In this document: one piece after another, positions 1 through 40,601 of the stretch
Layout of the letters: every line of letters starts with the position of its first letter
How positions within the stretch are numbered: position 1 is the stretch's first letter
Source: Saprospiraceae bacterium
Lineage (GTDB): Bacteria; Bacteroidota; Bacteroidia; Chitinophagales; Saprospiraceae
Reading direction: 5' to 3'
Length of the DNA stretch: 40,601 nucleotides
NCBI GenBank assembly: GCA_021299835.1
Contig: JAJTER010000033.1
Span: 1 to 40,601 of the forward strand
Translations under genes and position numbers: made by a program
Notes under the pieces: generated by a model
What the model saw: only the letters and a program-made list of their open reading frames with translations
The model's database searches: none
What the model was told of the DNA's origin: nothing

Positions 1-1419
1 GGTATGAAAGATGCCACCAAAGATGTAATATTAGGAAAGGCATATTTCTACAGAGCTTACCATTATTATAGGTTAGTTCACCAGTTTGGTGATATTCCTA
101 CCTCCTTTAAAGAATTGGCTGAACCAAAACTCGATTTCCAAACGGTAAAAAGAGAGGTGATTTTACAAAAGATTAAAGCTGATTTAGATTTTGCAGTTAA
201 GGTAGTACCTTTCGTTGGTAACAAGGGAGATGTAAATAGAGGAGCTATCGGCCATCTTTTGACGAAGGTTAACCTTGCTTTAGGCTTATACGATGAGGCT
301 ATTGCTTCAGCTGATTTGGTGATTAATTCAGGTACCTTTAAATTGATGACCGCACGCTTTGGTGCCGATGCGGGTAACCCAGCAAGAAATGTTATCTGGG
401 ATCTTCACAGACCAGTTAATAAATTTCTGCCGAATAATACAGAAGTATTATTCTCCTCAACAGATAGATTTGGTTTAACCAGTGCGACAACTACCGGCAC
501 AACATCTATGCGTCAGGCTGTTCCTTTTTATACAAGTCCTAATATATTAACTCCAGATGGCAGGCAGGGTATGAATCCTAACGTAGTTGAAATAGACTTA
601 GGAACCAGATTTGGAAGAGGAATTGGTCGTTGCAGAGGTACAACTTACAGTACTTTAACTATCTGGGATGATGAAAAGGATTTGAGACATGATGTCAAAT
701 CTGGAAACTGGATGAATATGGAACAATTGGTTTATAATAATCCATCTATTAAAACTACCTCTCCTTTTTATGGTAAACCATTGCAATTAAGAGATGCTAC
801 AGGTAAATTGCTCATCTCTGGAGGTGATACCATAAGGAATTGGTTCAGCTGGCCGCATTATAAGCTGTATATTGAAGACGCCATTCGTATTCCTTTTCAA
901 GGAGGTAACTCAGATTGGTATATTTTCAGATTGGCGGAAACGTATTTGTTAAGGGCGGAAGCTCATTTCTTTAAAGGTAATATTGCCGCAGCTACTGCCG
1001 ATGTAAATGTGGTTAGATCCAGAGCAGGTTGTTCTCCTTATGCTGGAAATGTTGACATAGGAACAATTCTGGATGAAAGAGCGAGAGAATTGTATTATGA
1101 AGAACCAAGAAAGACGGAATTAACCAGAATTGCTTATCAAATGGCCAAATCTGGAAAATCTTATAATGGAAAAACATATTCCACAAACAATTTTTCAGCT
1201 GCCAATTTCTTTTACGATAGAATTATGGATAAGAATATTTTTTATAAGAATAATATTAAAAATGTTCGGGGTGATGCCTATACCATAAGTCCATATCACG
1301 TCCTTTGGCCGATTCCAAGGAATGCTATTTTAGCAAATAGCCTTAATCAGCTGAATCAAAATATTGGTTATGCAGGAAGTGAAAAAAATAAACCGGCATT
1401 AGATAAAATTCCAGAATAA
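1..1419 (+). CDS. SusD/RagB-family outer-membrane nutrient-binding protein, 5' truncated
   Basis: The frame is open to the window edge, so the true start and the lipoprotein signal lie upstream; the ATG at 4 is internal. About 470 residues are visible, against 500-650 for the family. Near the new N-terminus is the SusD TPR-type segment RAYHYYRLVHQFGDIP. Near residues 300-345 is the family C-terminal region WYIFRLAETYLLRAEA followed by a second helical hairpin (DVNVVRSRAG), then LDERARELYYEE. SusD proteins sit on the outer-membrane surface and pass oligosaccharides to a SusC TonB-dependent channel, whose gene would be expected just upstream outside the window. Two exported oxidoreductases and a sulfatase follow on the same strand, so the complex probably imports a glycan or glycoside processed by those enzymes. 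The family call is firm; the ligand is unknown. Confidence 0.93.
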   Translation, partial: GMKDATKDVILGKAYFYRAYHYYRLVHQFGDIPTSFKELAEPKLDFQTVKREVILQKIKADLDFAVKVVPFVGNKGDVNRGAIGHLLTKVNLALGLYDEAIASADLVINSGTFKLMTARFGADAGNPARNVIWDLHRPVNKFLPNNTEVLFSSTDRFGLTSATTTGTTSMRQAVPFYTSPNILTPDGRQGMNPNVVEIDLGTRFGRGIGRCRGTTYSTLTIWDDEKDLRHDVKSGNWMNMEQLVYNNPSIKTTSPFYGKPLQLRDATGKLLISGGDTIRNWFSWPHYKLYIEDAIRIPFQGGNSDWYIFRLAETYLLRAEAHFFKGNIAAATADVNVVRSRAGCSPYAGNVDIGTILDERARELYYEEPRKTELTRIAYQMAKSGKSYNGKTYSTNNFSAANFFYDRIMDKNIFYKNNIKNVRGDAYTISPYHVLWPIPRNAILANSLNQLNQNIGYAGSEKNKPALDKIPE

Positions 1420-1467
1420 AATTTTCTTAACTTGTAAGCATTCGAAAAATTGCAAAACCAATTTTAA

Positions 1468-2847
1468 ATGAAAAGAAGAGATTTTATAGAAAAATCTATT
1501 GTGGGCGTAGTAGGTGCCATTGCGGTACCTACTATTGTTCCTTCCAGCGTTTTTGGAAAAAATGCACCAAGCAATAAAATTAATGTGGGTCAGATTGGTT
1601 GTGGTCGGATTGCCCGCGATCATGACCTCCCAGGTACGATGCAACACGAAATTGCCCGTTTAGTGGCAGTTTGTGATTTAGATAAAAATCGTCTCCTCGA
1701 TGGTAAAAAATTGGTGGAAGCTTACTACACCAAAAAAACAGGAAATGCCAATTATGTCGATGTTAAAATGTATGATGATTATCATGATATGTTGAATAAT
1801 AAGGATATTGATGCAGTCATCATTAGCACCCCTGACCATTGGCATTCTCAACCTGCTCTCGAAGCTGCATTAGCTGGAAAAGATGTTTATCTTCAAAAAC
1901 CTACTTCTTTAACGATCGCTGAAGGTCGTTTATTAAGTGATGTTGTTAAAAAGAAAGGGATTATATTACAAGTTGGCACCCAACAAAGATCTTCGCCTCA
2001 GTTTAGAATTGCTGCCGAATTAGTTAGAAATGGTCGGATTGGCAAACTTCATACCGTTAAAATAGGCCTGCCAGGCGACCCTTCCGGTCCTCCCGCTCCA
2101 GCAATGCCTGTTCCAGCCGGCTTTAATTATGATATGTGGCTTGGTTCTACCCCGGAAGTGCCTTACACGGAAATTGGTGTACATCCCCAAAAGGGCTATG
2201 ATCGTCCAGGTTGGCTTCGATTGGAACAGTATGGTGCAGGTATGATTACCGGTTGGGGTCAACACCACTTTGACTCCGCTGCATGGGGTATGGATACAGA
2301 ATATACAGGGCCGATATCCGTTCAATCGGTAGCAGAATTTCCTAAGGCTGGACTTTGGAATGTTCACGGCGATTTTATGGTGAAAGCTGAATATGCTAAT
2401 GGTATCACTATGTTAACCAGTGGCGGATATCCCAACGGTATTAGATATGAAGGTACAGAAGGCTGGATTTTTGTTTCCAGAGGGAATTATGTGGCTTCGT
2501 CCAGTGATCCGGTAACGGCTGCAAAAAGTAGCAAAGCACTCGATGCCAGTGACCCCAAAATCCTGACCTCCGTAATAGGTGCAAATGAAATTCACCTGTA
2601 TAAAAGCGATGAACACCATGGTAATTGGTTAGATTGTATTCAGAGCAGAAAAGAACCGATTTCTCCTGTGGAAATTGGTCACAGAACTTGTTCCGTTTGT
2701 TTAGTAAGCCATATTGCAATGAAGTTACCCAGAAAGTTAAATTGGGATCCGAAAGCAGAAAGATTTGTAAAAGATGATGAGGCAAATGCTATGCTCAGTC
2801 GTTCACAACGCAAACCTTATGGTACGACTAACGTGAAAATTTCTTAA
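1468..2847 (+). CDS. Tat-exported Gfo/Idh/MocA-family oxidoreductase (first of two)
   Basis: The protein has 459 residues. The N-terminus MKRRDFIEKS plus a hydrophobic stretch ending near SSVFG is a twin-arginine export signal, so the enzyme acts folded in the periplasm with its cofactor bound. A Rossmann segment follows (VGQIGCGRIA, about residues 42-51), then STPDHWH and LQKPTSL near residues 117-145. The LQKP segment replaces the classical EKP motif, a variant common in exported members. The C-terminal half carries the alpha/beta substrate domain (GWGQHHFDSAAWGMD). The family oxidises or reduces sugars and inositols with NAD(P); exported Bacteroidota members have been tied to 3-keto-glycoside chemistry, but no 3-keto-glycoside hydrolase (DUF1080) is seen here. 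The start is the ATG 48 bp after SusD; the next gene follows after 8 bp. Confidence 0.93.
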   Translation: MKRRDFIEKSIVGVVGAIAVPTIVPSSVFGKNAPSNKINVGQIGCGRIARDHDLPGTMQHEIARLVAVCDLDKNRLLDGKKLVEAYYTKKTGNANYVDVKMYDDYHDMLNNKDIDAVIISTPDHWHSQPALEAALAGKDVYLQKPTSLTIAEGRLLSDVVKKKGIILQVGTQQRSSPQFRIAAELVRNGRIGKLHTVKIGLPGDPSGPPAPAMPVPAGFNYDMWLGSTPEVPYTEIGVHPQKGYDRPGWLRLEQYGAGMITGWGQHHFDSAAWGMDTEYTGPISVQSVAEFPKAGLWNVHGDFMVKAEYANGITMLTSGGYPNGIRYEGTEGWIFVSRGNYVASSSDPVTAAKSSKALDASDPKILTSVIGANEIHLYKSDEHHGNWLDCIQSRKEPISPVEIGHRTCSVCLVSHIAMKLPRKLNWDPKAERFVKDDEANAMLSRSQRKPYGTTNVKIS

Positions 2848-2855
2848 TATTTTTT

Positions 2856-4025
2856 ATGGAAAAACAACCAAATAGGCGACGTGATTTCTTAAAGGAATCC
2901 GTCGCCTCTGCGGCTGGTCTCTTAATAATCCCAGCGCTTCCTTCTCTGTCTTTCGGGGCAATAAATACCGAAGTAGTTCAACCTTTATCGGTTAATCCTT
3001 ATCTGGCTCCCAGAATTAAATTTGCGGTCATTGGCGTGAACCATGGTCATATTTACAGTCAAACCGATGCAGTGATCCGGGGTGGAGGTGAATTGGTTGC
3101 CTGTTTTGCAAAAGAAGCAGATTTATTGGCCGAATTTTCCAAAAGGTATCCCCAGGCTAAAGTGGCTAACAGTGAAGCGGCTATTTTAGATGATCCCTCC
3201 ATTCAGTTAGTTTTAAGTTCCATTACTCCCGTTGAAAGAGCTCCCTTAGGCATCCGTGTGATGAAAAGCGGAAAAGATTATATGGCTGATAAGCCTGGAA
3301 TTACTACCCTTTCGCAATTAGCTCAGGTAAAAAAAGTACAGAAAGATACAGGTAGAATTTATTCTATTATGTATAGCGAACGGTTTGAAAACAGGGCAAC
3401 AGTAAAAGCCGGTGAACTCATTCAGGCTGGCGCTATCGGTAAGGTAATTCAAACCATAGGTCTTGGACCTCATAGAATGAACGTAAAGTCAAGACCTCCC
3501 TGGTTTTTTGATAAACAATATTTTGGAGGCATAATTTGTGATATTGCCTCCCATCAATTTGATCAATTTCTCTTTTTTACTGGCTCAACCAAAGCAGATA
3601 TTATCGCTGCACAAGTCGGGAATACGCATTTTTCTCAGTATCCTCAATTTGAAGATTTCGGTGATGTGATGGTGAGAGGTAATAAAGGGATGGGTTATAT
3701 AAGAGTCGATTGGTTTACTCCCGATGGTCTGAAATCATGGGGAGATGGCAGGTTAACTATCCTCGGAACCGATGGATTCATTGAAATAAGGAAAAATATA
3801 GATCCTGCGGGTCGCTCTGGAGGAAATCATCTTTTTCTCACGGATAATAAGGAAACGAGATATTTTGATTGCAAAGATCAAGATTTACCTTATGGAAGAC
3901 AATTAGTGGACGATGTTCTGAATAGAACGGAAACGGCAATGTCTCAGCATCACTGTTTTCTGGCAACGGAACTTGCCCTTAAAGCGCAAAATACAGCAGA
4001 GAACGTTACTTTTGAAACCAATTAA
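2856..4025 (+). CDS. Tat-exported Gfo/Idh/MocA-family oxidoreductase (second of two)
   Basis: The protein has 389 residues and begins with a clear Tat signal (NRRRDFLKES, then an Ala/Leu-rich core up to about residue 35). The nucleotide-binding segment is FAVIGVNHGHIYSQ, which is less canonical than in the preceding gene, and the EKP-like motif reads ADKPGITTL. A C-terminal substrate domain includes GGIICDIASHQFDQF. It is clearly a diverged paralogue of the preceding gene rather than a recent copy: length, Rossmann loop and catalytic motif all differ. Two exported oxidoreductases in tandem suggest sequential or complementary redox steps on one imported sugar, for example oxidation and re-reduction at one carbon. 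That is inference from order and spacing (8 bp upstream, 19 bp downstream). The substrate is unknown. Confidence 0.92.
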   Translation: MEKQPNRRRDFLKESVASAAGLLIIPALPSLSFGAINTEVVQPLSVNPYLAPRIKFAVIGVNHGHIYSQTDAVIRGGGELVACFAKEADLLAEFSKRYPQAKVANSEAAILDDPSIQLVLSSITPVERAPLGIRVMKSGKDYMADKPGITTLSQLAQVKKVQKDTGRIYSIMYSERFENRATVKAGELIQAGAIGKVIQTIGLGPHRMNVKSRPPWFFDKQYFGGIICDIASHQFDQFLFFTGSTKADIIAAQVGNTHFSQYPQFEDFGDVMVRGNKGMGYIRVDWFTPDGLKSWGDGRLTILGTDGFIEIRKNIDPAGRSGGNHLFLTDNKETRYFDCKDQDLPYGRQLVDDVLNRTETAMSQHHCFLATELALKAQNTAENVTFETN

Positions 4026-4044
4026 AAACCTAATCTAACTTATT

Positions 4045-4944
4045 GTGAATTATAAAAGTTCTTTTTTATTTATTTGCCTGTTGACTTTTTTCCTGCCAGG
4101 ATATGGTCAATTGAAAGTTTCTGCCGTTAAGCACAACGAAAAAATTGATATCCTCATAAATAAAAATTTATTTACTTCCTATCTGTTTTCAGAGGAAGAA
4201 AAATATCCGTTTTTCTTTCCTGTAAATGGTCCTTCTACCTCCGGCGTAACCTCTATGAGAAATGCCAATTACCCTCATCACAGCTCCCTTTTCTTTGGTT
4301 GCGATAGGGTGAATGGTGGTAATTTTTGGCAGGAAGGACTGGAAAGGGGGCAAATTATCTCCTTGCGTGCCGATCTTGTGCCCTCGGGAGAAAATAAAGT
4401 AGTCATTGAAAATGAATGTATCTGGAGAAGGCCCGGAGCCAATGCGCCTATTAAAGATTTTAGAAAAATTACTATTTCTGCTCCATCCAATGAACTGTAT
4501 CTAATCGATTTTGACATTACCATGGAAATGTTGGAAAATGTGGTCATAGAAAAAACAAATCATTCTCTTTTTAGTGGAAGAATGGATCCTGATCTGGCCG
4601 TAATAAATGGTGGCATCATGGTAAATGCTGAAGGGGCACAATCTGAAAAGGGTACATTTGGCCTCCCTTCACCCTGGATAGATTGCTCGGGAAAAAGAGG
4701 AGATAAAATGGAGGGCATGGCCATTTTACAACACCCATCAAATCCAGGTTACCCTGCTCCCTGGTTTACCCGCGATTATGGCTTTTTTTCACCTACCCCA
4801 ATGTATTGGCCTAAAGATGAAAAACTGGGTTCGGTGTATAGTAAAGGCGAGAAATTAACGCTCCGTTATCGTGTGATTATTCATTCAGGGAACCACGAAA
4901 CCTCAAATATTGCCAGACATTTTGAGGCTTATAAAAGGGATTAA
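4045..4944 (+). CDS. Secreted DUF6807 (PmoA-family) protein
   Basis: The protein has 299 residues with a GTG start at 4045, chosen because it gives a complete Sec signal peptide (charged start, hydrophobic core, cleavage after GYGQ near residue 22). The body carries features typical of DUF6807 proteins: NANYPHHSSLFFGCDRVNGG near residues 75-95, a repeated acidic/aromatic beta-strand pattern, and a C-terminal segment with PWFTRDYGFFSPTP. Databases often label the family 'methane oxygenase PmoA', a misleading name; it shows no resemblance to membrane methane monooxygenase and is usually found in carbohydrate-catabolic clusters. An all-beta, galactose-mutarotase-like fold is likely. It probably acts in the periplasm with the neighbouring oxidoreductases and sulfatase. 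Molecular function is not established. Confidence 0.85.
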   Translation: MNYKSSFLFICLLTFFLPGYGQLKVSAVKHNEKIDILINKNLFTSYLFSEEEKYPFFFPVNGPSTSGVTSMRNANYPHHSSLFFGCDRVNGGNFWQEGLERGQIISLRADLVPSGENKVVIENECIWRRPGANAPIKDFRKITISAPSNELYLIDFDITMEMLENVVIEKTNHSLFSGRMDPDLAVINGGIMVNAEGAQSEKGTFGLPSPWIDCSGKRGDKMEGMAILQHPSNPGYPAPWFTRDYGFFSPTPMYWPKDEKLGSVYSKGEKLTLRYRVIIHSGNHETSNIARHFEAYKRD

Positions 4945-4970
4945 TATCCTTCTCGGGTAATAATATTTTT

Positions 4971-6473
4971 ATGTATAAAATTCTTTTTGCGCTCGCCGCC
5001 TTTTCATCTCTTTTTGGTTCCATAAACGGGCAGGTAAAAAAGCCCAATATCATTATCATCAATCTAGACGATTTGGGTGTCGGAGATGTAAGCGCCTATA
5101 AAAAAGGATCACTAAATACCCCCAATATTGATTTTTTAGCCAATAATGGGGTTCGTTTTAATAAAGGATATGCTACTTCGGCTACATGTACACCCAGTAG
5201 ATATGCCCTGCTTACAGGATTATATCCATGGAAAAATAGTCAGGCTAAAATATTGCCTGGTGACGCTCCCCTGATTATAGATACCTCACTGATGACCTTA
5301 CCAAAGGTTTTAAAAAAGGCAAATTATACCACAGCAGTCGTTGGGAAATGGCATTTAGGTCTGGGTAATGGTACGATTGACTGGAATAAAAAGATATCGT
5401 TTGCTCCTTCCGAAGTAGGCTTTGATTATTCATTTATCATGGCCGCTACCACAGACAGAGTGCCAACCGTATATATTGAAAATAATAAGGTAGTGGGCTT
5501 AGAAGAAAAAGACCCATTATTTGTTAGTTATCAGCAAAATTTTGACAATGAGCCAACGGCCATTACTCACCCTGAGTTAATGACCAAAATGAAGTGGCAT
5601 CATGGGCATAATCAAAGTGTTCATAATGGTATTCCAAGAATTGGATACATGAAAGGAGGGAAAAATGCCCTTTGGGTGGATGAGGATATGTCTGATGTTT
5701 TTTTGGAAAAAGCACTGGCTTTTATTCAGAATGCAAAATCGACGCATGCTGAAAATCCGTTTTTCTTATATTTTGCCCTTCACCAACCCCATGTTCCTCG
5801 GGTTCCTCATCCCCGGTTTGTAGGTAAATCAGGAATGGGGCCAAGAGGCGATGCTATTCTTGAGGCCGACTGGTGTGTGGGAGAATTAATGGCAAAATTG
5901 AAGGAATGGGGTGATCTGGAAAATACATTCATCCTTTTTACAAGCGATAATGGGCCTGTTTTAAATGACGGTTACTATGACGACGCGGTTGAAAAAGTGG
6001 GAAAGCATACCCCATTTGCCGATTTGAGAGGCGGAAAATATAGCCTCTATGAAGCGGGAACCCGTGTGCCTTTCATTACCTATTGGAAGGGAGTGATAAA
6101 ACCAGGCGTATCAAATGCCATGGTTTGTCAACTCGACTTTACGGCCTCGTTTGCTCACTTGCTCGGTCTTCCACTGCCAGCAGGAGATGGCGAAAATCAA
6201 CTGAATGCCTTATTGGGAAAAAGTAAAAAGGGTCGCAGGGAACTCATGATTGAAGCAACGGGAAGATTAGCTTATAAATATGACGATTATGTATATATCC
6301 CGCCTTACAAGGGTAGCCCAATCGTTGAAACGGTGCAAATAGAAAATGGAAATGCGCCGGAAGATCAGTTGTTTAATCTGAAAAAGGATATTGGCCAAAG
6401 GGTGAATTTGGCGAAAAGTATGGAAAGTAAGTTGGCCTTTATGAAATCTAAGATGGCCTTACTAAAAAATTAG
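4971..6473 (+). CDS. Secreted type I sulfatase (formylglycine-dependent)
   Basis: The protein has 500 residues. A Sec signal peptide ends near residue 20 (SINGQ). The metal-site aspartates are in NLDDLGVGD (D33, D34). The maturation and active-site motif is CTPSR at residues 73-77, where Cys73 would be oxidised to formylglycine, followed by YALLTGLYPW. The downstream sulfatase landmarks GKWHLG, HQPHVPR and FTSDNGP are present, as is RGGKYSLYEAGTRVPF. All key residues seem intact, so an active enzyme is expected. The dependence on Cys-type maturation means an anaerobic or aerobic sulfatase-maturing enzyme must be encoded elsewhere. Its place in the SusD-led operon points to desulfation of a sulfated glycan or glycoside in the periplasm; the substrate cannot be read from the sequence. 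Confidence 0.95.
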   Translation: MYKILFALAAFSSLFGSINGQVKKPNIIIINLDDLGVGDVSAYKKGSLNTPNIDFLANNGVRFNKGYATSATCTPSRYALLTGLYPWKNSQAKILPGDAPLIIDTSLMTLPKVLKKANYTTAVVGKWHLGLGNGTIDWNKKISFAPSEVGFDYSFIMAATTDRVPTVYIENNKVVGLEEKDPLFVSYQQNFDNEPTAITHPELMTKMKWHHGHNQSVHNGIPRIGYMKGGKNALWVDEDMSDVFLEKALAFIQNAKSTHAENPFFLYFALHQPHVPRVPHPRFVGKSGMGPRGDAILEADWCVGELMAKLKEWGDLENTFILFTSDNGPVLNDGYYDDAVEKVGKHTPFADLRGGKYSLYEAGTRVPFITYWKGVIKPGVSNAMVCQLDFTASFAHLLGLPLPAGDGENQLNALLGKSKKGRRELMIEATGRLAYKYDDYVYIPPYKGSPIVETVQIENGNAPEDQLFNLKKDIGQRVNLAKSMESKLAFMKSKMALLKN

Positions 6474-6508: not shown

Positions 6509-7324
6509 ATGACAGCAATAAAAAATAGTGTTTGTGTTATTACAGGAGGTGGTTCGGGAATAGGACGTGCGCTGGCCATTGAATTAGTAGGCAAAGGGGC
6601 GAAAGTGGTAATAGGTGATATTGTCCCCGAAGAACTGCAGGAAACGGTGCAATTGGCAGGCTCAAATATTTATGCGTATAATTTAGATGTCAGTAAAATG
6701 GATTCAATCCATGCCTTTAAGGAAAATGTACTTAGGGAATTTCCTGATTCTCCCCTCATTTTATTTAATAATGCCGGCGTAAATTTAGCTTCCGGCTATT
6801 TTATGGAGACACCTCTTGACGATTTTGAATGGTTGATAAATATTAATCTTTGGGGCGTGATAAAAATGACCCATGCCTTTTTACCGCACATCTATCAAAG
6901 AAAAGATGGGCATATTGTCAATATTTCAAGTATGTTAGGGTATGCCGCTACCCCTCGTTCTTCCGCATATTGTACCTCGAAATTTGCCGTTAAGGGTTTT
7001 ACCGATGCGTTAAAAGTAGAACTTTTGAACTCAGGAATTGGTGTAAGTTCTGTTCATCCAGGTGGTATAAAAACCAATATTATCCGTAAATCTAAATTAT
7101 CTGATCATTTAGACGAAAAACAGACCTGGAATTTATTGAACAAAATTGAAAAAAAATCGCTTACCATGCCGGCTAAACGAGCTGCGGAAATTATAATTGA
7201 TGGCGTTGAAAGAAATAAATCAAGAATTCTTATAGGTAAAGATGCTAAAGCCGTAGATTGGCTGGTAAGAATTTTTCCGGATACCTATTTCAAACTTCTT
7301 GAAAATTTATTGAAAAAAATGTAA
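6509..7324 (+). CDS. Short-chain dehydrogenase/reductase (classical SDR)
   Basis: The protein has 271 residues with no signal peptide, so it is cytoplasmic. The classical SDR layout is complete: TGGGSGIG cofactor loop at about residues 12-19, NNAGVN near residue 90, catalytic Ser in VNISSM near residue 141, and Tyr154/Lys158 in the YCTSK box, followed by SVHPGGIKTNI. The C-terminal tail is hydrophobic and basic (LLENLLKKM). An acidic residue ends the second strand (GDIV), which usually favours NAD over NADP. The substrate is not predictable. The stop codon lies inside the first copy of a 77-bp tandem duplication, so the last residues appear again downstream in a spurious mini-frame. It is co-oriented with the sulfatase gene (35 bp gap). 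Confidence 0.93.
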   Translation: MTAIKNSVCVITGGGSGIGRALAIELVGKGAKVVIGDIVPEELQETVQLAGSNIYAYNLDVSKMDSIHAFKENVLREFPDSPLILFNNAGVNLASGYFMETPLDDFEWLININLWGVIKMTHAFLPHIYQRKDGHIVNISSMLGYAATPRSSAYCTSKFAVKGFTDALKVELLNSGIGVSSVHPGGIKTNIIRKSKLSDHLDEKQTWNLLNKIEKKSLTMPAKRAAEIIIDGVERNKSRILIGKDAKAVDWLVRIFPDTYFKLLENLLKKM

Positions 7325-7447
7325 ATCGTTAAATTATGGGACTTTTAATATACGGGGCGAATGGCTATACACTTCTTGAAAATTTATTGAAAAAAATGTA
7401 AATCGTTAAATTATGGGACTTTTAATATACGGGGCGAATGGCTATAC
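7294..7447. repeat. Perfect 77-bp tandem duplication across a gene junction
   Basis: Bases 7294-7370 are repeated exactly at 7371-7447. Each copy holds the last codons of the SDR, its stop, the 11-bp spacer, and the first codons of the next gene (start codons at 7336 and 7413). The duplication separates genes that would otherwise be 11 bp apart and creates a 21-residue mini-frame (7336-7401) joining the start of the downstream protein to the SDR tail. The two copies show no differences, so the event is either very recent or an assembly artefact. Identity ends sharply on both sides (7293 versus 7370, 7448 versus 7371). Confidence 0.97.
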
Positions 7448-12303: not shown

Positions 12304-13019
12304 TAGCAGACGTTCCAGAATGGCGAGTGGGTGATAAAGTGATTTATCGCAATAACCAGTTCATAGCTTTCAACAAGCCAGTGGCCGTAGCCACACAACC
12401 AGACAAAACGGAGGATGTTTCGCTCATTACCTTAGCAGAAAGGTATGCCCGTTCTCCTTTGTTCCTTACCCATAGAATAGACAGACCTGCAAGTGGTGTT
12501 GTCTTGTTCGCTAAAACGAAAAGGGCGTTACAGTCTATTAATCAACAGTTCAAGGATAGAACCATTCGGAAAAAGTATTTGGCCATCGTGGGGAATCCCC
12601 CACCTGAATCAACAGGTATTCTGCACAATCAGTTGATTAAAAATAGTAAAACCAACAAAACAAGTACCGTTAACGAGGATAATGAGAGGGGTGTTGCCGC
12701 TGAACTTCGTTACACCGTACTGGCAAAAAGTGAAAAATATGTACTTCTCGAAATCGATTTGATTACAGGAAGACACCATCAGATCAGGGCTCAGTTAGGT
12801 GCTATCGGTTCACCTATCAGGGGTGACGTAAAGTATGGTTTTAAAAGGGGAAATAAGGATAGATCCATTCAACTTCACGCATGGAAATTATCTTTCATTC
12901 ATCCTGTGTCTAACGAAGAAGTAAGCATTGAAGCACCGCTTCCTTCTGATCCATTATGGGACTATTTCAAACCTTTTTGTGAAAAGCCAATGCTACCTCC
13001 TACCCAGTCAAAGGAGTGA
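12300..13019 (+). CDS. RluA-family pseudouridine synthase
   Basis: The protein has 239 residues and isomerises uridine to pseudouridine in rRNA or tRNA. The catalytic motif is HRIDRPASG at residues 58-66 with Asp61 as the nucleophile. Other family blocks are FNKPVAVATQP near residue 24-34, KKYLAIVG near 104, and GRHHQIRAQLGAIGSPIRGD near 162-181. No N-terminal S4 domain is present, so it resembles the short RluA/TruC-type members; which RNA site it modifies cannot be decided. The start is the ATG overlapping the upstream stop. The last 58 bases overlap the 3' end of the convergent ATP-grasp-like gene, and the extra tail after DPLWDYF is not conserved-looking. Confidence 0.93.
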   Translation: MIADVPEWRVGDKVIYRNNQFIAFNKPVAVATQPDKTEDVSLITLAERYARSPLFLTHRIDRPASGVVLFAKTKRALQSINQQFKDRTIRKKYLAIVGNPPPESTGILHNQLIKNSKTNKTSTVNEDNERGVAAELRYTVLAKSEKYVLLEIDLITGRHHQIRAQLGAIGSPIRGDVKYGFKRGNKDRSIQLHAWKLSFIHPVSNEEVSIEAPLPSDPLWDYFKPFCEKPMLPPTQSKE

Positions 13020-14161
13020 TTGTATCTAACGCCTATCATTTCCCCACGGCTCAATCGGGTGATGTTTGTAGCTAACGTAGGTCTGGCTTTCGTTTTGTCC
13101 CATACATACATTAACCTTAATTCAGCCTTTACCTGACCGTTCAAGGATTCAATAACAGGCTCGTAACTTACCTTTTCTTGCAGCAAATATTGACTTTTGT
13201 CTTGTATTAAGGCTAGTTTCTCTGCTGTTGGATGCAAGTCAACACCAGATCCTGCGAAAGAGTAAAGTGGTTTTAGCACATATTTATCCAAGTCTTCTGT
13301 CTGGAGGTTAAAGTCATTAAGAAAATAGGATTTTGGCATGTATTTCCCTTTCAAAAAGGGTAATAAATACTTACTTATTCTAAAAAACCAATTAGGATGT
13401 GCTACCCAGCTTACATCCACATCATCGGTAAATTGAAAGGAAAGATCAAGATTTTGGTAAGTTGCCAACTCATCCAGAATGACCCGATTATATATTCTGC
13501 TGATTTTTTGAAGTTTACCATCCTTCAGGTAAAACAGGTTTCTGTCCTTTTTGATTATTTGAGTCAGGCAAACCGTCTCAATACCAAAATCTCTCTTCGC
13601 CAAAACAAAATCAATCCTTGTTTTTTGTTTATCCGGAAATAATTCCAGCAGGATAACTTCCTCCGCTGGAAATTCTGCTAACAGGGTATTTTTCAATAAA
13701 GACAAAAATCCCTGTCGATTTAAACCATTAAAAAAAGGAGTTAGGGTATCAGGAATACTAAAATGGGTAACATATTTTTCTGCCAAATAGGACTGATAAT
13801 TAAATAAAGTAGCAAATCCTTGCAGCTCAATTAAATAAGGTGTTAATTCACCCATTTCATTTCTGCTGATGGCAAAATCGATAGATAGTAATTGGGGACA
13901 ATCATCTTCATTTGGCGTAAACATCCCTGCTGGAATCGCTTTTTCTGTTTGTTTTTTAAAATCGGACCGAACAATAAAATCTATTATTTCTTCACCAGCC
14001 GCAGCACATTTTTCAACAAAACTATCCGTTAAAAATATAGGTGTCTCAGCAATGCGAAAATCAAGGACACCAGGAAAATCCTGGTGAATAGATTCCAGGA
14101 AGGATTGGTATTTATCATTGGAAAATTGTTCGTTGAATGTATTTCTGAAGTCCTGATGCAT
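12962..14161 (-). CDS. Uncharacterised ATP-grasp-like ligase
   Basis: The protein has 399 residues from the ATG at 14161; a TTG at 14188 would add nine. The C-terminal half looks like an ATP-grasp fold: KYVLKPLYSFAGSGVDLHP (nucleotide-binding Lys and glycine loop), YLLQEKVSYEPVIES (Glu of the hinge strand), then KAELRLMYVWD and ATNITRLSRGEMIGVRYN, where Mg-ligand Asn/Arg positions would fall. The N-terminal half resembles the substrate region of glutathionylspermidine-synthase-like proteins only loosely. Such enzymes form amide or peptide bonds from a carboxylate and an amine with ATP. No signal peptide is present. It follows the cyclase-family gene by 33 bp in the gltX operon. I do not recognise a named family member, so the substrate is open. 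Confidence 0.72.
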   Translation of the reverse strand: MHQDFRNTFNEQFSNDKYQSFLESIHQDFPGVLDFRIAETPIFLTDSFVEKCAAAGEEIIDFIVRSDFKKQTEKAIPAGMFTPNEDDCPQLLSIDFAISRNEMGELTPYLIELQGFATLFNYQSYLAEKYVTHFSIPDTLTPFFNGLNRQGFLSLLKNTLLAEFPAEEVILLELFPDKQKTRIDFVLAKRDFGIETVCLTQIIKKDRNLFYLKDGKLQKISRIYNRVILDELATYQNLDLSFQFTDDVDVSWVAHPNWFFRISKYLLPFLKGKYMPKSYFLNDFNLQTEDLDKYVLKPLYSFAGSGVDLHPTAEKLALIQDKSQYLLQEKVSYEPVIESLNGQVKAELRLMYVWDKTKARPTLATNITRLSRGEMIGVRYNHSFDWVGGSIGFSQKGLK

Positions 14162-18337: not shown

Positions 18338-18456
18338 AGGATTCCAAATCAGGTCTTTTTTTCATTGGCATTGTTGAAAAAAATAGGTTAATTTGTACTT
18401 GATTTTCTGAATTTCAAGTGGTTCCGTTAAGACCATTCCAAAAAACCTGTTTGCTC

Positions 18457-21400
18457 ATGAGCCGATCAATTATATTGTTCGGGTCTTCCCCTGTAAAAGG
18501 AATTCCTGCCTTGATTATTCTCTTTTATTTACTTTTCAGTTTTGAAAGTAAAGCCGCCCCGGGAGATACCTTAGTGGTCAATTGTTCGGTGGGAGAATCG
18601 ACTTATCTGAACTGGCTGGATAACCTAAGTATTAAATACAAGGTGCCAGTAGTCCAGGCGGGTGGTTCCGTCTCAGTGGTTCCTTTGCCTGATGGCTATC
18701 CTTATATGCAGACTTGCGAGGACACGATCAGACATACATTCACCTATTTTAATGCACAAGGCAGGCAAACAGGGCAGAATGTTTTTCTGTTTATTCGTAG
18801 AAATCTGCTCCCGCCAACTATCGTTTCTCCTTTTCCCGATACCCTTCGATTGTCATGCTCCGAGGTGGTTCCCGATCGAAATTCTGTCTCTTTTGAATCT
18901 TGTCAATTAGCATCAGTAACTTATAATGAGGTAATTACAAAAGATTCTCTATGCTCTTTTTCAAGTAAAATAATAAGTACCTGGACTGCCTTAGATAAAT
19001 GTAACAGGCAAACTACCTACCGATTAGTAATACTTATCGCCCCCCTTGAAAATTCGTTATTTTTAAAACAAGCTCCCGATATTACGATATCGTGTGGTTC
19101 TTCTACGAATCCTTCCGCTACGGGAAGACCTCTTTTATTAGATCTTTGTGAGTCGGTTACCCTAACCTATCAGGACAGTATTGTTGGTTCATTATCTAAT
19201 AATTGCTCAACATCTTATGTAATTCACAGAAAATGGACGGCCAATGGAAATTGCTCATCTTCTTCGGTTTATACCCAAAAAATAACGGTATCCAATACAG
19301 CTTCGTTAAAGGTTTTATGCCCCTCAGACAGAGAAATAAAGGTCTATAATAATTCCTGTGCCGCATCGGTATCTCTTCCGTATCCTCTTAGCGTAGGACT
19401 TTGTCCATCAGGAAGGGTGTTTTATAAAATAAATGAGGGAAATACGGTGCGTTGGGTAGATGAAAACGAAAAAAATATCACATTATCCGCTGGCTTTCAT
19501 AAAATCACCTATTTGATAACAGATTGTGAGGGAAATTCCACTTCCTGCATTTGGTTTATCTCAGTTAAAGATTTTTATGCTCCCGAAATTAGTTGTAGTG
19601 CAGACAAAACAGCAGTAGTTTCAACGGGTGAGTGCATAGCGCCGGTTCCTTTACCCAGGCCTTCTATTTCAACAGATAACTGTAATCAAAATTTTATATA
19701 CCAACAAAAAAATGCACTGGATAGTAGCGTTGCCCTGTCCATTTTTAGTGATGTCCTCCTCCCTTTCTCCGTCGCTTTCAACGATGTGCCTACTTCAACG
19801 CAAGACAGTGTGACCATATCCTTTGATTTTAGACTTAATATGTCCAGTCCATCGGTAAGATTAAATATTCGGGGAGAAAGAAATGAATTCATTGGTACCA
19901 TTCCCTTTGATGCCGCAGGTTGCAATATTAGAAGAAGGATTTCCTTTAAAATAGCTCCCCAGATAGCAAAAAATTGGCTTGCCGACGGAAAAGTCAGCTT
20001 TTCAATCGAAACCGTAGGGCAGATTAGCCCTTGCGATAATGTGGATATTTTTACCAAATTTGATAATAAATCATTTTTTCTGGCCGAATTAAGCGTAAAT
20101 CGGATAAACCCCTATTTTTATATTAGAGGTGTCACTACTTATCCCAATACTTTGTTTGATTTAGATAAACCAGTGCCGGTGGTGCAATTGAATCCGGGAA
20201 CCTCCCAGGTTTATTATGTTATCAGTGATGCCAATGGGAACGCGGACACCTGTACCTTTAATATCGTAACCATTGACGATCAATTTCCAGTAATTCAATG
20301 TCAGCAGGTTACAAAAAAATATAGCCCTGGAGATCTTTTATTTCCTGTCATAACTCTCGACGAGGTAATTTTAAGTCTTAGTGATAATTGTCCGATTTCC
20401 CGTAAAGAACTAAATATTAGTCGCTTGACTTGCGAACAAACGAATGGGGATGTTCCGTTGATACTGACGGTATATGATCAGGCGGGTAATAAAAATACTT
20501 GCAATACGGTGGTTAAAGTACAAAAGGAAACGCCAAAGCCTGATTATCGGGTAAATATATGTGGCGGGGACACTCTTTTCCTTTTTGCAAATCCACCCTC
20601 ACAGGCGATTGGAAACACATTTCAATATAGATGGGTAGGACCCAATGGATTCTCTTCAACGCTGCAAAATCCTAAAATTCCGTTTAGCCGCGGCATTCAC
20701 AGCGGAAACTATACGGTCGAAGTTACAGGTACAATGGGCTGTAAATCAAGTGGAACCGTGAATGTTTTTATTGCTGATTTACCTACTCGCGCTATTATTC
20801 AGGGTGCACAAGTTTATTGCACAGGTTCAGCGATCAATATGCGTTCTGGTGCCAATCCGGTAGGTGCCAATATCAAATATCATTGGTATAAAGGCACTTA
20901 TCCTACGGGAAATCTTCAAGCCATAACAGAGCTACCTCTTTATAGTGTAGTCCAAAATCAAGAAACCGCGCTTTCATTTTATCTGATGGTTGAAAATAGC
21001 GGCTGTTTCTCAGAGCCATCTGTCGCAAGAAATATAAAAGTATATGCACAACCTGTAGCAAAACCATTACAAGATTCTGTGCAATTATGTGTTGGAGGTA
21101 CCTTGAATTTAGGAACTAATGTGCAAGGAGAGGCAATAACTTATTTATGGACAGGTCCGGAAGGTTATAGTTCCACGCTTAGGGTGCCTGATCCCATAAC
21201 AAATGTTGGCTTGAAAAATGCAGGAAATTATAAATTAACCGTTTCCAGAACAGGATGTTCCTCTTCTGAAGCTTTGGTAAAAGCAGCTATATCGGAGGTG
21301 CCCGCAAAACCTTCCGTTATTAGTAATAGTCCGGTTTGTGTCGGAGATACCTTGTTTTTGCAAAGTACCTTTTTCCCTGGTGAATACACGTGGATTCGAC

Positions 21401-24177
21401 CCGATCGTTCAGAGGTAAAAGGCCTTTCCTCTACCTTGTCTGTTCCCAATGTCAGTACCGCCCTTTCCGGCGATTGGCGGTTAAAAGTATCTTATTTATC
21501 TTGCCCCGATGTTTTTTCAGATTTTATTCCGATGGTAGTCAATGCTTTTGTAAAGCCTAATATTCTTCTTCCTGCGCAGGAGGTTTGTGCTGGTACTCCC
21601 GTAAGGTTATCTGTTTCTTCCCCTCAGGAAAACGGAACGTATCAGTGGACGGGACCATTGAATTTTCAACGGTCGGGGTCAAATATTGTCATTGATAGTG
21701 TTGAATTAACGCAAAGCGGTAAATATACCGTTCGATTTACCACCAATGCCGGTTGTCAGGGAGATGCAGTGACAGAACTTTTTGTAAAGCAATCTGTCTT
21801 GATTACTTCCCTAGATTTGCTAGGAGATCCATGTGCATCAGGTAGTAATACGTTATCCTTAAGACCTAAATTACTACCCTTAGATAATGGATCCTATTCC
21901 TATTTCTGGACAGGTCCAAATGGGTTTGTCGGAAGAAATAATCAGGTAAATCTGACAGGATTGGGTAGTGTAGCCAACGGAACCTACCAGTTATACATTC
22001 AATCGGCGAATAATTGTCAATCCAAAACAGCAAGCTATCAGGTTAATCTTGGAAGCAGACCGGCAAAGCCCGCGCCTCCTTTTAATCAGGAACAGGGACT
22101 TACCGCTTGTCTTAACAATTCCTTTGTTTTAAGAACATCCCCATTTTTAGGCTCGGGAAATACCAGTTATCATTGGCGTTTACCTGATGGGCGTATGGTC
22201 GAAACCCAATTACCCGTTTTGGAAATAAACAAAGTTTCTTTTTCTGACGAAGGAGATTATAGTGTATTTATTCGGAATAATGGATGTAATTCCGATACCT
22301 CGCTGGTTTCCAAAGTATCGGTAAAGCCACTTCCTATTCTCTCGGTTACTTCTAATACCCCGGTTTGTGCGGGTTCGACCCTACGTTTAAATGCAAGTCA
22401 GTTTGATGGGGCTACCTATAAATGGACGGGACCAAATAATTTTACCTCTACCAGTGCCGGGGTTATAATCTCTCAGATTCAACAAAGTAATGGAGAGGGA
22501 AATTTCTCCGTCGTTATGACCGTAAATGGATGTTCTACCGATCCTATCATTGTTCCGGTGACTGTACTTCCTGCTGAGGTTTTGCCTGCGCTTGAACCTG
22601 TGAAGGATGTCTGTACGGATAAACAAACCAGTATTTCTTTAAAAATACCGGCCGCAAATTATCTGGTAGGCGCCACTTATGTATGGTATGCTGACGGTGT
22701 ACCTATTGATTCAGGTAAACAATCGTTGACTACTATTCAAAATTTAACTCCTTTTATAGGTAGATCGGTCGTCTTTTCTGTAAAACAGAAGGGTTCTTTA
22801 TGTTCTTCAGAATCAACAACTTCCCTTCCCGTAACCATTTCTGCTATACCAAATGAAAGGGCTGTGGTGGAAAATAATTTTGCCATTTGTGCGGCACCAA
22901 CCATCAATATAAAAGCACAAGCTACCTCCTTTAGCCAGGGAAGTTGGAGGTTATGGAGAGCAAGTGATAATTCGGTGGTTAACATAAATAATGCAAATGC
23001 TCCTATTGCCAGTGCAGAAAATCTTAGATCAGGCAGAAGCTATTCCTTTATTTATTCTCTTTCCAGTGGTGCCTGCACTCAATTTTCAGAAGATACACTG
23101 ATCATCAATATTAAACCTCAGAGTGAATCGTATGCAGGATTAGATATTAAACTTTGTGACGCAAACTCATTTTCCTTAAACGCCAGAGAGGTTAATCAGG
23201 AGAAAGGATTATGGTCTCAGTCCGAACTTCAAGCGTCGAGAGGGGTAAGAATTCTTTCCCCGGAGAAAAATAATTCAGGGGTTTCTGGCTTACAACCAGG
23301 TAATAAATACAATTTTATCTGGACCGTTTCCGGTGAATGCGGCGTTTCTTCCGATGAAGTCGATATCGTTTTTTCTCAAAAAAATCCTTTCGCAGGTATT
23401 GATAAATCTATTTGTTTGGTTGATGGTAAAATTCAGCTGGAGGGCGAACCAGTCAACGATGGAAGCGTTGCTCAATGGAAATCACTGAGCACAGGTGTGC
23501 GTTTCTCTGATAGCCAATCGCCCGTTACTTCTGTTTTCGGATTAACAGGCGGAAGTCATTCTTTTGTATGGGAAGTGGATGAGGGTATTTGTGGCCAACA
23601 GTCAAGAGATACGGTGGTGGTGAAAATATTGAATCCACCAACCTTGAAGAGAGACACTTTTAAAATGGATTTCAATACCTTGCTGAAAGCTCCTCTGTCA
23701 ATTACGGCCGCCAAAGACCAACTGCTTACTTATAATTTATTGAACAAACCTTTCCGCGGTGAAGCTATCATTAATTCATCGGGTATATTGGAATATAAAC
23801 CTAATGCTATTTTAAAAGGAGATGAATTATTGGTTTATCAGGTTTGTAATAAGGATTGTGGGTGCAGCACGGGAGAAATCTTTATTGAAATAGGTAACGA
23901 TAAATCATGTATTGCTCCGTCTATCATTACACCAAACGGGGACGGTGTAAATGATGTTTTTGCCATACCATGTTTGTTTGGAGATAAATTTCCCGATAAT
24001 AAAGTGACCATTTATAATAGAAGGGGTGATATTGTTTTCCGTTCCCAGGGGCCTTACCAGAATAATTGGGGCGGAAAATATTCAGAAGTGGCCTTGCCAG
24101 GTGGGACTTACTTTTTTGTGGTTGACTTTGGTAATGGTGAAAAACCACAGTCTTCCTTCTTAATCATTCAATACTAA
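18457..24177 (+). CDS. Giant multi-Ig/HYR surface protein with T9SS type-B sorting domain
   Basis: The protein has about 1,906 residues from the ATG at 18457; a GTG at 18418 would add 13. A signal peptide ends around SKAAPGD. Next come HYR-like modules with paired cysteines (DNC and DANGN motifs), interrupted near residues 430-575 by a cysteine-poor beta-rich insert. At least six Ig/PKD-like modules follow, each built around W(T/V)GP(N/E)GF and GC near residues 740-1340, and then more diverged modules. The C-terminus has the CHU_C type-B sorting signal: ITPNGDGVNDVF, IYNRRGDIVF and LPGGTYFFVVD. Such proteins are exported by the T9SS and held on or released from the cell surface, often as adhesins. 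Genes for PorP/SprF and OmpA/PD40 proteins follow, a common pairing with type-B cargo. Confidence 0.93.
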   Translation: MSRSIILFGSSPVKGIPALIILFYLLFSFESKAAPGDTLVVNCSVGESTYLNWLDNLSIKYKVPVVQAGGSVSVVPLPDGYPYMQTCEDTIRHTFTYFNAQGRQTGQNVFLFIRRNLLPPTIVSPFPDTLRLSCSEVVPDRNSVSFESCQLASVTYNEVITKDSLCSFSSKIISTWTALDKCNRQTTYRLVILIAPLENSLFLKQAPDITISCGSSTNPSATGRPLLLDLCESVTLTYQDSIVGSLSNNCSTSYVIHRKWTANGNCSSSSVYTQKITVSNTASLKVLCPSDREIKVYNNSCAASVSLPYPLSVGLCPSGRVFYKINEGNTVRWVDENEKNITLSAGFHKITYLITDCEGNSTSCIWFISVKDFYAPEISCSADKTAVVSTGECIAPVPLPRPSISTDNCNQNFIYQQKNALDSSVALSIFSDVLLPFSVAFNDVPTSTQDSVTISFDFRLNMSSPSVRLNIRGERNEFIGTIPFDAAGCNIRRRISFKIAPQIAKNWLADGKVSFSIETVGQISPCDNVDIFTKFDNKSFFLAELSVNRINPYFYIRGVTTYPNTLFDLDKPVPVVQLNPGTSQVYYVISDANGNADTCTFNIVTIDDQFPVIQCQQVTKKYSPGDLLFPVITLDEVILSLSDNCPISRKELNISRLTCEQTNGDVPLILTVYDQAGNKNTCNTVVKVQKETPKPDYRVNICGGDTLFLFANPPSQAIGNTFQYRWVGPNGFSSTLQNPKIPFSRGIHSGNYTVEVTGTMGCKSSGTVNVFIADLPTRAIIQGAQVYCTGSAINMRSGANPVGANIKYHWYKGTYPTGNLQAITELPLYSVVQNQETALSFYLMVENSGCFSEPSVARNIKVYAQPVAKPLQDSVQLCVGGTLNLGTNVQGEAITYLWTGPEGYSSTLRVPDPITNVGLKNAGNYKLTVSRTGCSSSEALVKAAISEVPAKPSVISNSPVCVGDTLFLQSTFFPGEYTWIRPDRSEVKGLSSTLSVPNVSTALSGDWRLKVSYLSCPDVFSDFIPMVVNAFVKPNILLPAQEVCAGTPVRLSVSSPQENGTYQWTGPLNFQRSGSNIVIDSVELTQSGKYTVRFTTNAGCQGDAVTELFVKQSVLITSLDLLGDPCASGSNTLSLRPKLLPLDNGSYSYFWTGPNGFVGRNNQVNLTGLGSVANGTYQLYIQSANNCQSKTASYQVNLGSRPAKPAPPFNQEQGLTACLNNSFVLRTSPFLGSGNTSYHWRLPDGRMVETQLPVLEINKVSFSDEGDYSVFIRNNGCNSDTSLVSKVSVKPLPILSVTSNTPVCAGSTLRLNASQFDGATYKWTGPNNFTSTSAGVIISQIQQSNGEGNFSVVMTVNGCSTDPIIVPVTVLPAEVLPALEPVKDVCTDKQTSISLKIPAANYLVGATYVWYADGVPIDSGKQSLTTIQNLTPFIGRSVVFSVKQKGSLCSSESTTSLPVTISAIPNERAVVENNFAICAAPTINIKAQATSFSQGSWRLWRASDNSVVNINNANAPIASAENLRSGRSYSFIYSLSSGACTQFSEDTLIINIKPQSESYAGLDIKLCDANSFSLNAREVNQEKGLWSQSELQASRGVRILSPEKNNSGVSGLQPGNKYNFIWTVSGECGVSSDEVDIVFSQKNPFAGIDKSICLVDGKIQLEGEPVNDGSVAQWKSLSTGVRFSDSQSPVTSVFGLTGGSHSFVWEVDEGICGQQSRDTVVVKILNPPTLKRDTFKMDFNTLLKAPLSITAAKDQLLTYNLLNKPFRGEAIINSSGILEYKPNAILKGDELLVYQVCNKDCGCSTGEIFIEIGNDKSCIAPSIITPNGDGVNDVFAIPCLFGDKFPDNKVTIYNRRGDIVFRSQGPYQNNWGGKYSEVALPGGTYFFVVDFGNGEKPQSSFLIIQY

Positions 24178-39201: not shown

Positions 39202-40601
39202 ATGAATCGTTTTGGTAGATTTAGTTTATATGTATTTTTGCCTCTAATATTATTGGCCGCCAGTTCCTACAGCGTATTTAAATACGTTAATACCTCAGAA
39301 GACCCTGAGGTGGTCAATATTAAAGTGCCCGAAGGATTTGCAGCGGAACATTTATATAGCTCCTCGGAAAATAACAAAGGATCCTGGGTTTCCATGTGCT
39401 TTGATGACAAAGGTAGAATGATTGCCTCTGACCAATATGGAGGTATGTATCGGTTGACCATCCCTCGGATTGGTGAAAAACTGGATACGAATATGATTGA
39501 AAAAATTAAACTTGAAAATGACACCTTGAATTTTGGTGCTGCCCATGGTTTATTATATGCTTTCAATAGCTTATATGTTATGGTGAATAATCGCCCAAGT
39601 AAAAATCTGCCTAAAACAAGCGGTTTTTACAGATTACAGGATACCGACGGCGATGACCAATTTGATAAGTTGACCTTGCTTAAAACCTTAGTAGGCGAAG
39701 GGGAGCACGGACCGCATAGTATCAAGTTGTCACCTGATAAAAAATCGTTATACGTAATTTGTGGAAATTATACAGATCTCCCTGAAATGGATAGTTACAG
39801 ACTTCCAAAAACATGGAAATATGATAATTTATTTCCAGAAATCAAGGATCCAAGGGGTCATGCCAATGATAGAAAAGAACCTGGTGGTTGGGTCGCTAAC
39901 GTAGATCCGGAAGGCAAAAAATGGGAATTAATCTCCGCAGGTTATAGAAATCCATTTGATTTAGCTTTTAACGACGTGGGGGATCTTTTTGTATATGATG
40001 CAGATATGGAATGGGATTTTGGTCTTCCATGGTATCGCCCAACCCGTATTTGTCATGCGACAAGTGGTTCTGAATTTGGTTGGAGAACAGGAAATGGTAA
40101 ATGGAGTCCTGCTTTTCCAGATAATCTTCCACCGGTTATCAATATCGGGCAAGGATCGCCGACCAATTTAATGTATCTCAAGGAGGCTAAATTTCCTACA
40201 AAATATAAGCAAACCTTGTTGGCATTCGATTGGAGTTTTGGTATCGTCCATGCCATTCATCTTAAGCCAAAAGGTGCAAGTTACACGGCCGTGCAGGAGG
40301 AATTCTTATCTGCTGCTCCGCTACCACTTACAGATGGAGCCATTGGTCCTGACGGTTCCCTTTACTTTTTAACAGGTGGACGAAGACTGGAATCTAATTT
40401 ATATCGGGTGTATTATAGAGGAAATGAATCAACTTCCGATGGCGAAATGACCCAAATTACGGAAGAAAATAAGTTGCGCAGACAATTGGAAGACTTTCAC
40501 GGTGCACCAAATGCTGCAGCCGTTGCAACGGTTTGGCCTCATCTGAATCATGTAGACAGACATATCCGATATGCTGCCAGGATTGCATTGGAACACCAGC
40601 C
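39202..40601 (+). CDS. Sugar-dehydrogenase-like beta-propeller protein (DUF7133 type), 3' truncated
   Basis: The frame starts at the ATG 39202 and stays open to the window end (466 codons visible). An N-terminal membrane or signal segment (LYVFLPLILLAASSY) precedes a soluble domain. VPEGFAAEHLYSS, MCFDDKGRMIASDQYGGMYR, GAAHGLLY, GEHGPHSIKLSPD, AGYRNPFDLAFND, and DADMEWDFGLPWYRPTR form the beta-propeller seen in PVC and Bacteroidota proteins named 'membrane-bound dehydrogenase' or 'PQQ-dependent sugar dehydrogenase'. Near the edge helical HEAT-like repeats begin (DRHIRYAARIAL). Complete homologues usually carry a c-type cytochrome domain further on, which lies outside this window. The physiological substrate is unknown. 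Confidence 0.82.
   Translation, partial: MNRFGRFSLYVFLPLILLAASSYSVFKYVNTSEDPEVVNIKVPEGFAAEHLYSSSENNKGSWVSMCFDDKGRMIASDQYGGMYRLTIPRIGEKLDTNMIEKIKLENDTLNFGAAHGLLYAFNSLYVMVNNRPSKNLPKTSGFYRLQDTDGDDQFDKLTLLKTLVGEGEHGPHSIKLSPDKKSLYVICGNYTDLPEMDSYRLPKTWKYDNLFPEIKDPRGHANDRKEPGGWVANVDPEGKKWELISAGYRNPFDLAFNDVGDLFVYDADMEWDFGLPWYRPTRICHATSGSEFGWRTGNGKWSPAFPDNLPPVINIGQGSPTNLMYLKEAKFPTKYKQTLLAFDWSFGIVHAIHLKPKGASYTAVQEEFLSAAPLPLTDGAIGPDGSLYFLTGGRRLESNLYRVYYRGNESTSDGEMTQITEENKLRRQLEDFHGAPNAAAVATVWPHLNHVDRHIRYAARIALEHQ

Follow-up and report, generated by a model that had tools for sequence, protein, structure and literature searches.

When two edges of a de Bruijn graph are joined without trimming the k-mer that they share, a duplication of k-mer length results, a recognised kind of artefact, and 77 is the default top k in a widely used assembler. 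A join whose estimated distance is zero or negative can be free of Ns. At the breakpoints of natural tandem duplications, microhomology is common, but not obligatory. Contigs overlap by n in some assemblers and by n-1 in others, and these two values are also assigned to IDBA-UD and metaSPAdes in the opposite way to the published rule given at the end of this paragraph. A literature search at title level for k-length duplications, scaffolding errors and microhomology returned no fitting title. Chen et al. 2020 (PMC7111523) state a contig overlap of n for IDBA-UD and n-1 for metaSPAdes, describe in section 9 that Ns were inserted despite overlapping flanks in IDBA-UD and CLC assemblies, and suspect local errors to be prominent in IDBA-UD. 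A published IDBA-UD setting (PMC8204110) is -mink 65 -maxk 115 -step 10.

Here, an exact two-copy tandem repeat of 77 bp at the boundary of two genes is compared with these systems. It lies in a contig (C136) that makes up the entire stretch of DNA analysed (40,601 nucleotides, the window) and that belongs to a draft genome (G000) of a Saprospiraceae bacterium with 4,043,840 bases in 205 contigs.

Materials and methods

Exact end-to-end overlaps were sought among 203 contig ends, taken from 110 of the 205 contigs. The congeners were searched for the locus with 5 candidates scored per genome. Tandem repeats were compared with those of 80 control loci (1.30 Mb), which came mostly from draft genomes and had four congeners among them. 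For the count of possible repeat placements, 30 ORFs were picked from the 44 listed in the window.

Results

Anatomy of the repeat and its neighbouring genes

Tandem Repeats Finder reported 7294-7447 as a repeat of period 77 with 2.0 copies and 100% match, and a second repeat search returned the same pair (Table 1). Chance origin is negligible, with an expectation of about 5e-41 at one period under the base composition. At period 77, matching positions follow one another for exactly 77 bases, and the repeat ends therefore carry no extra homology; accordingly, microhomology was not found at the 7370/7371 junction. There are no Ns at this join or anywhere else in the window. The unit has a GC content of 28.6%, a value that 5.3% of the 77-bp segments in the window do not exceed. 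Searched against its own genome, the 77-mer matched at the two repeat places only, and a third copy or branch partner elsewhere in the genome was rejected on this ground.

Table 1. Coordinates of the repeat copies, the flanking genes and the frame created between them
Feature	Position in window	Strand	Description
Short-chain dehydrogenase (SDR) gene, 271 aa	6509..7324	+	Frame open from start to stop; stop at 7322-7324 in copy 1; Pfam PF00106, E 5.8e-47
Copy 1 of the 77-bp unit	7294..7370	+	End of the SDR gene up to and including its stop, then the 11-bp spacer and 35 bases from the start of the reductase frame
Putative 21-codon frame made by the junction	7336..7401	+	Opens with 12 residues of the reductase N-terminus from copy 1 and closes with the 9 C-terminal residues of the SDR frame and its stop from copy 2
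Copy 2 of the 77-bp unit	7371..7447	+	Identical to copy 1; the full-length reductase gene begins here, with its ATG at 7413
Saccharopine-dehydrogenase-like NAD(P)-binding protein (reductase) gene, 351 aa	7413..8468	+	Uninterrupted frame that begins in copy 2; Pfam PF03435, E 2.8e-10

The duplication leaves both the SDR and the reductase gene whole. Among all window placements of a 77-bp segment, 4,120 of 40,524 (10.2%) are not contained within a single one of the 30 ORFs taken as genes, and the repeat is one of them. The frame across the junction was computed as 21 residues and a stop, the latter 11 bp ahead of the reductase ATG; nothing supports this putative frame as a gene. The first-pass annotation of the sequence had described two identical, adjacent copies at these coordinates, spanning the stop/start junction of two genes, with a 21-residue fusion frame ahead of the reductase gene, and it was correct in each of these respects.

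Elsewhere in the window, the upstream genes at 4-6473 encode, by Pfam, SusD, two Gfo/Idh/MocA oxidoreductases, DUF6807 and a sulfatase, and resemble a carbohydrate-use cluster. The longest listed open reading frame of the window (1919 aa) lies at 18418-24177.

Comparison with related genomes

The nearest four named records are draft assemblies from environmental samples with 96-99% protein identity, two of them labelled Saprospiraceae and two only Bacteroidota or Bacteroidetes. When aligned, all four have the single-copy layout with the flanks of the repeat exactly 77 bases apart and 11 bp between the SDR stop and the reductase ATG, which is the spacing that had been predicted from removing one copy. 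A single copy was found in five of the six congeners searched, with the query halves overlapping by 77-78 bases in each target; for one minus-strand match (L007) this rests on match coordinates. The sixth (G003) had no match at the locus among the 5 of its 44 candidates that were scored, which is weak evidence of absence. The comparison with related genomes, proposed in the first-pass annotation, recovered the duplication in none of those that matched.

The SDR stop region reads ATGTAA in both copies and ATATAA in the four aligned relatives. Since the copies share a base that these relatives lack, the second copy is new or artificial. An old duplication was rejected because the copies are identical and both carry the differing base.

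N gaps elsewhere in the same assembly

Three N gaps are present in 1.65 Mb of this genome, on contigs C2, C138 and C131. The gap at C2:2099-2162 consists of 64 Ns, and both of its flanks repeat the same 13 bp. This place is continuous in 6/6 congeners by match coordinates, on which two of the six depend, the letters confirming it in the other four: the flanks overlap by 13 bases and nothing is missing. The C2 gap is therefore a false scaffold gap, which adds 77 nt net (64 Ns and 13 repeated bases). G001, the one congener inspected for this, has a 483-aa ORF across the place, as against two ORFs here, of 414 and 144 aa, that overlap and differ in frame. A gene of this public draft genome seems to be broken by the false join.

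The gap at C138:7137-7163 has 27 Ns, where four congeners have 163 bases and one has 166 (the sixth had no match), a comparison that rests on match coordinates for six minus-strand congener rows; the join error is -136. Judged by inspection only, the bases lost there include a stop/start junction in the congeners. For the gap on C131 (25 Ns with 8 bp repeated on both sides, sum 33), the stretch searched matched none of the six congeners. C131 is a short contig with diverged internal repeats.

From the excess at C2 and the shortfall at C138 it follows that join distances in this assembly are unreliable and err in both directions. The 13-bp flank repeat at C2 and a run at C138 that is shorter than the congeners' sequence seem to fit gaps better than stretches masked by an operator. 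A constant scaffolder offset of +77 appears not to apply, as the value is +77 at C2 but -136 at C138. The recurrence of 77 at C2 was noticed after the fact and rests on one other gap; it may be due to chance.

Possible assembly error by a false join

We give about an even chance, with a slight leaning in its favour, to the second copy being an assembly error that came about by a route other than a k-mer of 77. Two contig pieces would share sequence at the low-GC gene boundary and would be joined by read-pair scaffolding or local assembly at a mis-estimated distance, so that 77 bp of their overlap would be left unremoved as the second copy. If the estimated distance was zero or below, such overlapping pieces would probably yield a duplication without Ns. 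By analogy with C2, an overlapping join of that kind may also have happened at 7370/7371, and the assembler was presumably IDBA-UD-like. The reading draws support from the C2 place, a false excess of 77 nt in the same genome, from copies that are identical, have no congener counterpart and lack microhomology at their junction, and from relatives in which the locus is unbroken and single-copy (5/6 congeners, four records aligned). Join distances that err both ways, the faults published for IDBA-UD and CLC assemblies, an IDBA-UD ladder that agrees with 114-bp overlaps and the low GC of the unit also count in its favour. Against it count the lack of Ns at the junction and the preservation of both genes, as in 10.2% of placements. 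Common false joins would moreover be expected to leave a spread of spurious duplications, and the 1.65 Mb (41% of the genome) shows no such spread.

Possible recent natural duplication

The rival that survives best, at somewhat less than even chances, is that a tandem duplication of 77 bp truly arose, very recently, in the population that was sampled. The same fraction of placements (4,120/40,524) speaks for it, in that both genes stayed whole at a position where this is the minority outcome. The overlaps of 114 bp between contigs (see below) suggest a graph able to render a duplication of 77 bp faithfully, as k near 115 should be enough to resolve a true one. At periods 15-600, the only tandem repeats of the 1.65 Mb besides that of 77 bp are a 48-bp repeat array and a duplication of 24 bp, with no further exact tandem duplication of period 50-600. 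This rate is ordinary and no higher than in the control loci, of which 9/80 contain exact tandem repeats of at least 15 bp and one a repeat of at least 50 bp (54 bp). That one is a two-copy exact tandem duplication at 12981-13088 of locus L044 in a congener (BJGN01000077.1), absent from the five other genomes searched. Its length is a multiple of three, and it lies about 2.2 kb downstream of the SDR gene, without microhomology.

Set against a natural origin are the single copy in five of six congeners (the sixth without a match), the false excess of 77 nt at C2 and the missing microhomology at the junction. The last is weak evidence, because the 24-bp duplication here and the 54-bp duplication in the congener also lack microhomology. 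The argument from the position of the repeat is itself weakened, since the C138 gap, by inspection, is also at a stop/start junction.

It is thus plausible, if a little less so than not, that a genuine young duplication of a stop/start junction, with a 21-codon frame of reductase N-terminus and SDR C-terminus between intact genes, was caught before loss or divergence. If so, it would be close to neutral: copy 1 would keep the SDR stop, copy 2 would keep the reductase start together with 42 upstream bases, and at most one 21-residue peptide would be made between the two genes. It would probably be short-lived, because adjacent direct repeats are easily lost.

Proposed untrimmed graph join at k=77

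The first-pass annotation had attributed the repeat to the untrimmed concatenation of two graph edges sharing a 77-base k-mer, on the ground that the period is exactly 77, which a widely used assembler has as its default top k. The contig ends speak against this. Among the 203 ends, 13 pairs overlapped exactly end to end, 12 of them by 114 bp, one by 65 bp and none by 77 bp, so that the proposal is without support and k=77 was rejected as the overlap of this assembly. Both ends of the window's own contig behave in the same way, with exact 114-bp overlaps of positions 1-114 and 40488-40601 with contigs C1 and C145. As contig ends share 114 bp, the trace of an untrimmed graph join should here be about 114 bp long. 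A second exact tandem duplication of period 77 was not found in 1.65 of 4.04 Mb. Taken together, a join at k=77 is very unlikely.

The natural reading of the overlaps is a top k of 114 or 115. The -mink 65 -maxk 115 -step 10 ladder (PMC8204110) fits the 114-bp overlaps and contains no 77. The sole exact end-to-end overlap of another length, that of 65 bp, joins the 3' ends of G000:C171 and C160, and is close to the lowest k of that ladder. An earlier pass over 159 ends had also turned up repeats, matching over 30-108 bases but breaking off before the contig end, and one pair of ends starting with the same 114 bases. In three congeners (G002, G004, G006), contig ends were searched for overlaps of the SPAdes type (n or n-1), and no partner contig was found.

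Hypothetical selected tandem element

A tandem element kept by selection, such as a translational leader or switch, could be imagined from the sequence, as the junction frame is open and its closely placed stop could couple translation to the reductase, but it is absent from the five congeners that match the locus, such a frame arises automatically when a stop/start junction is duplicated, and we regard the idea as extremely improbable.

Discussion

The gene content of SDR and reductase is the same with one copy or with two, and the finding is ordinary under either main reading. Between an error and a real event, an assembly error leads, with odds that are only about level. The first-pass annotation as a whole holds for the anatomy, for the effect on the genes and for its suspicion that an artefact is involved, the last slightly favoured by way of joins made without overlap removal, as at the C2 gap with its +77 nt; what fell is k=77 as the reason, in view of the 114 bp shared by contig ends.

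The observation is useful mostly for data hygiene. Whether a duplication is a k-mer artefact can be tested without raw reads, from the contig-end overlaps and the false gaps within its own assembly, and in this case the test speaks against k=77 and reveals a false join elsewhere, at C2.

Compared with natural short tandem duplications at gene boundaries, the locus is alike in having two exact copies and preserved flanking genes, and differs in a junction without microhomology and in that there is no second assembly with the repeat. With an untrimmed de Bruijn join it shares exact adjacent copies with sharp ends, but the length is 77 bp here and 114 bp at the contig ends common to this assembly. 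The scaffolding error with overlapping flanks, as described by Chen et al. 2020 (PMC7111523), is similar in that sequence is duplicated where relatives are continuous; the join at 7370/7371 differs by having no Ns, and the correspondence is drawn through an analogous place elsewhere in this genome. That place, the C2 gap, fits the published description, with Ns plus duplicate sequence.
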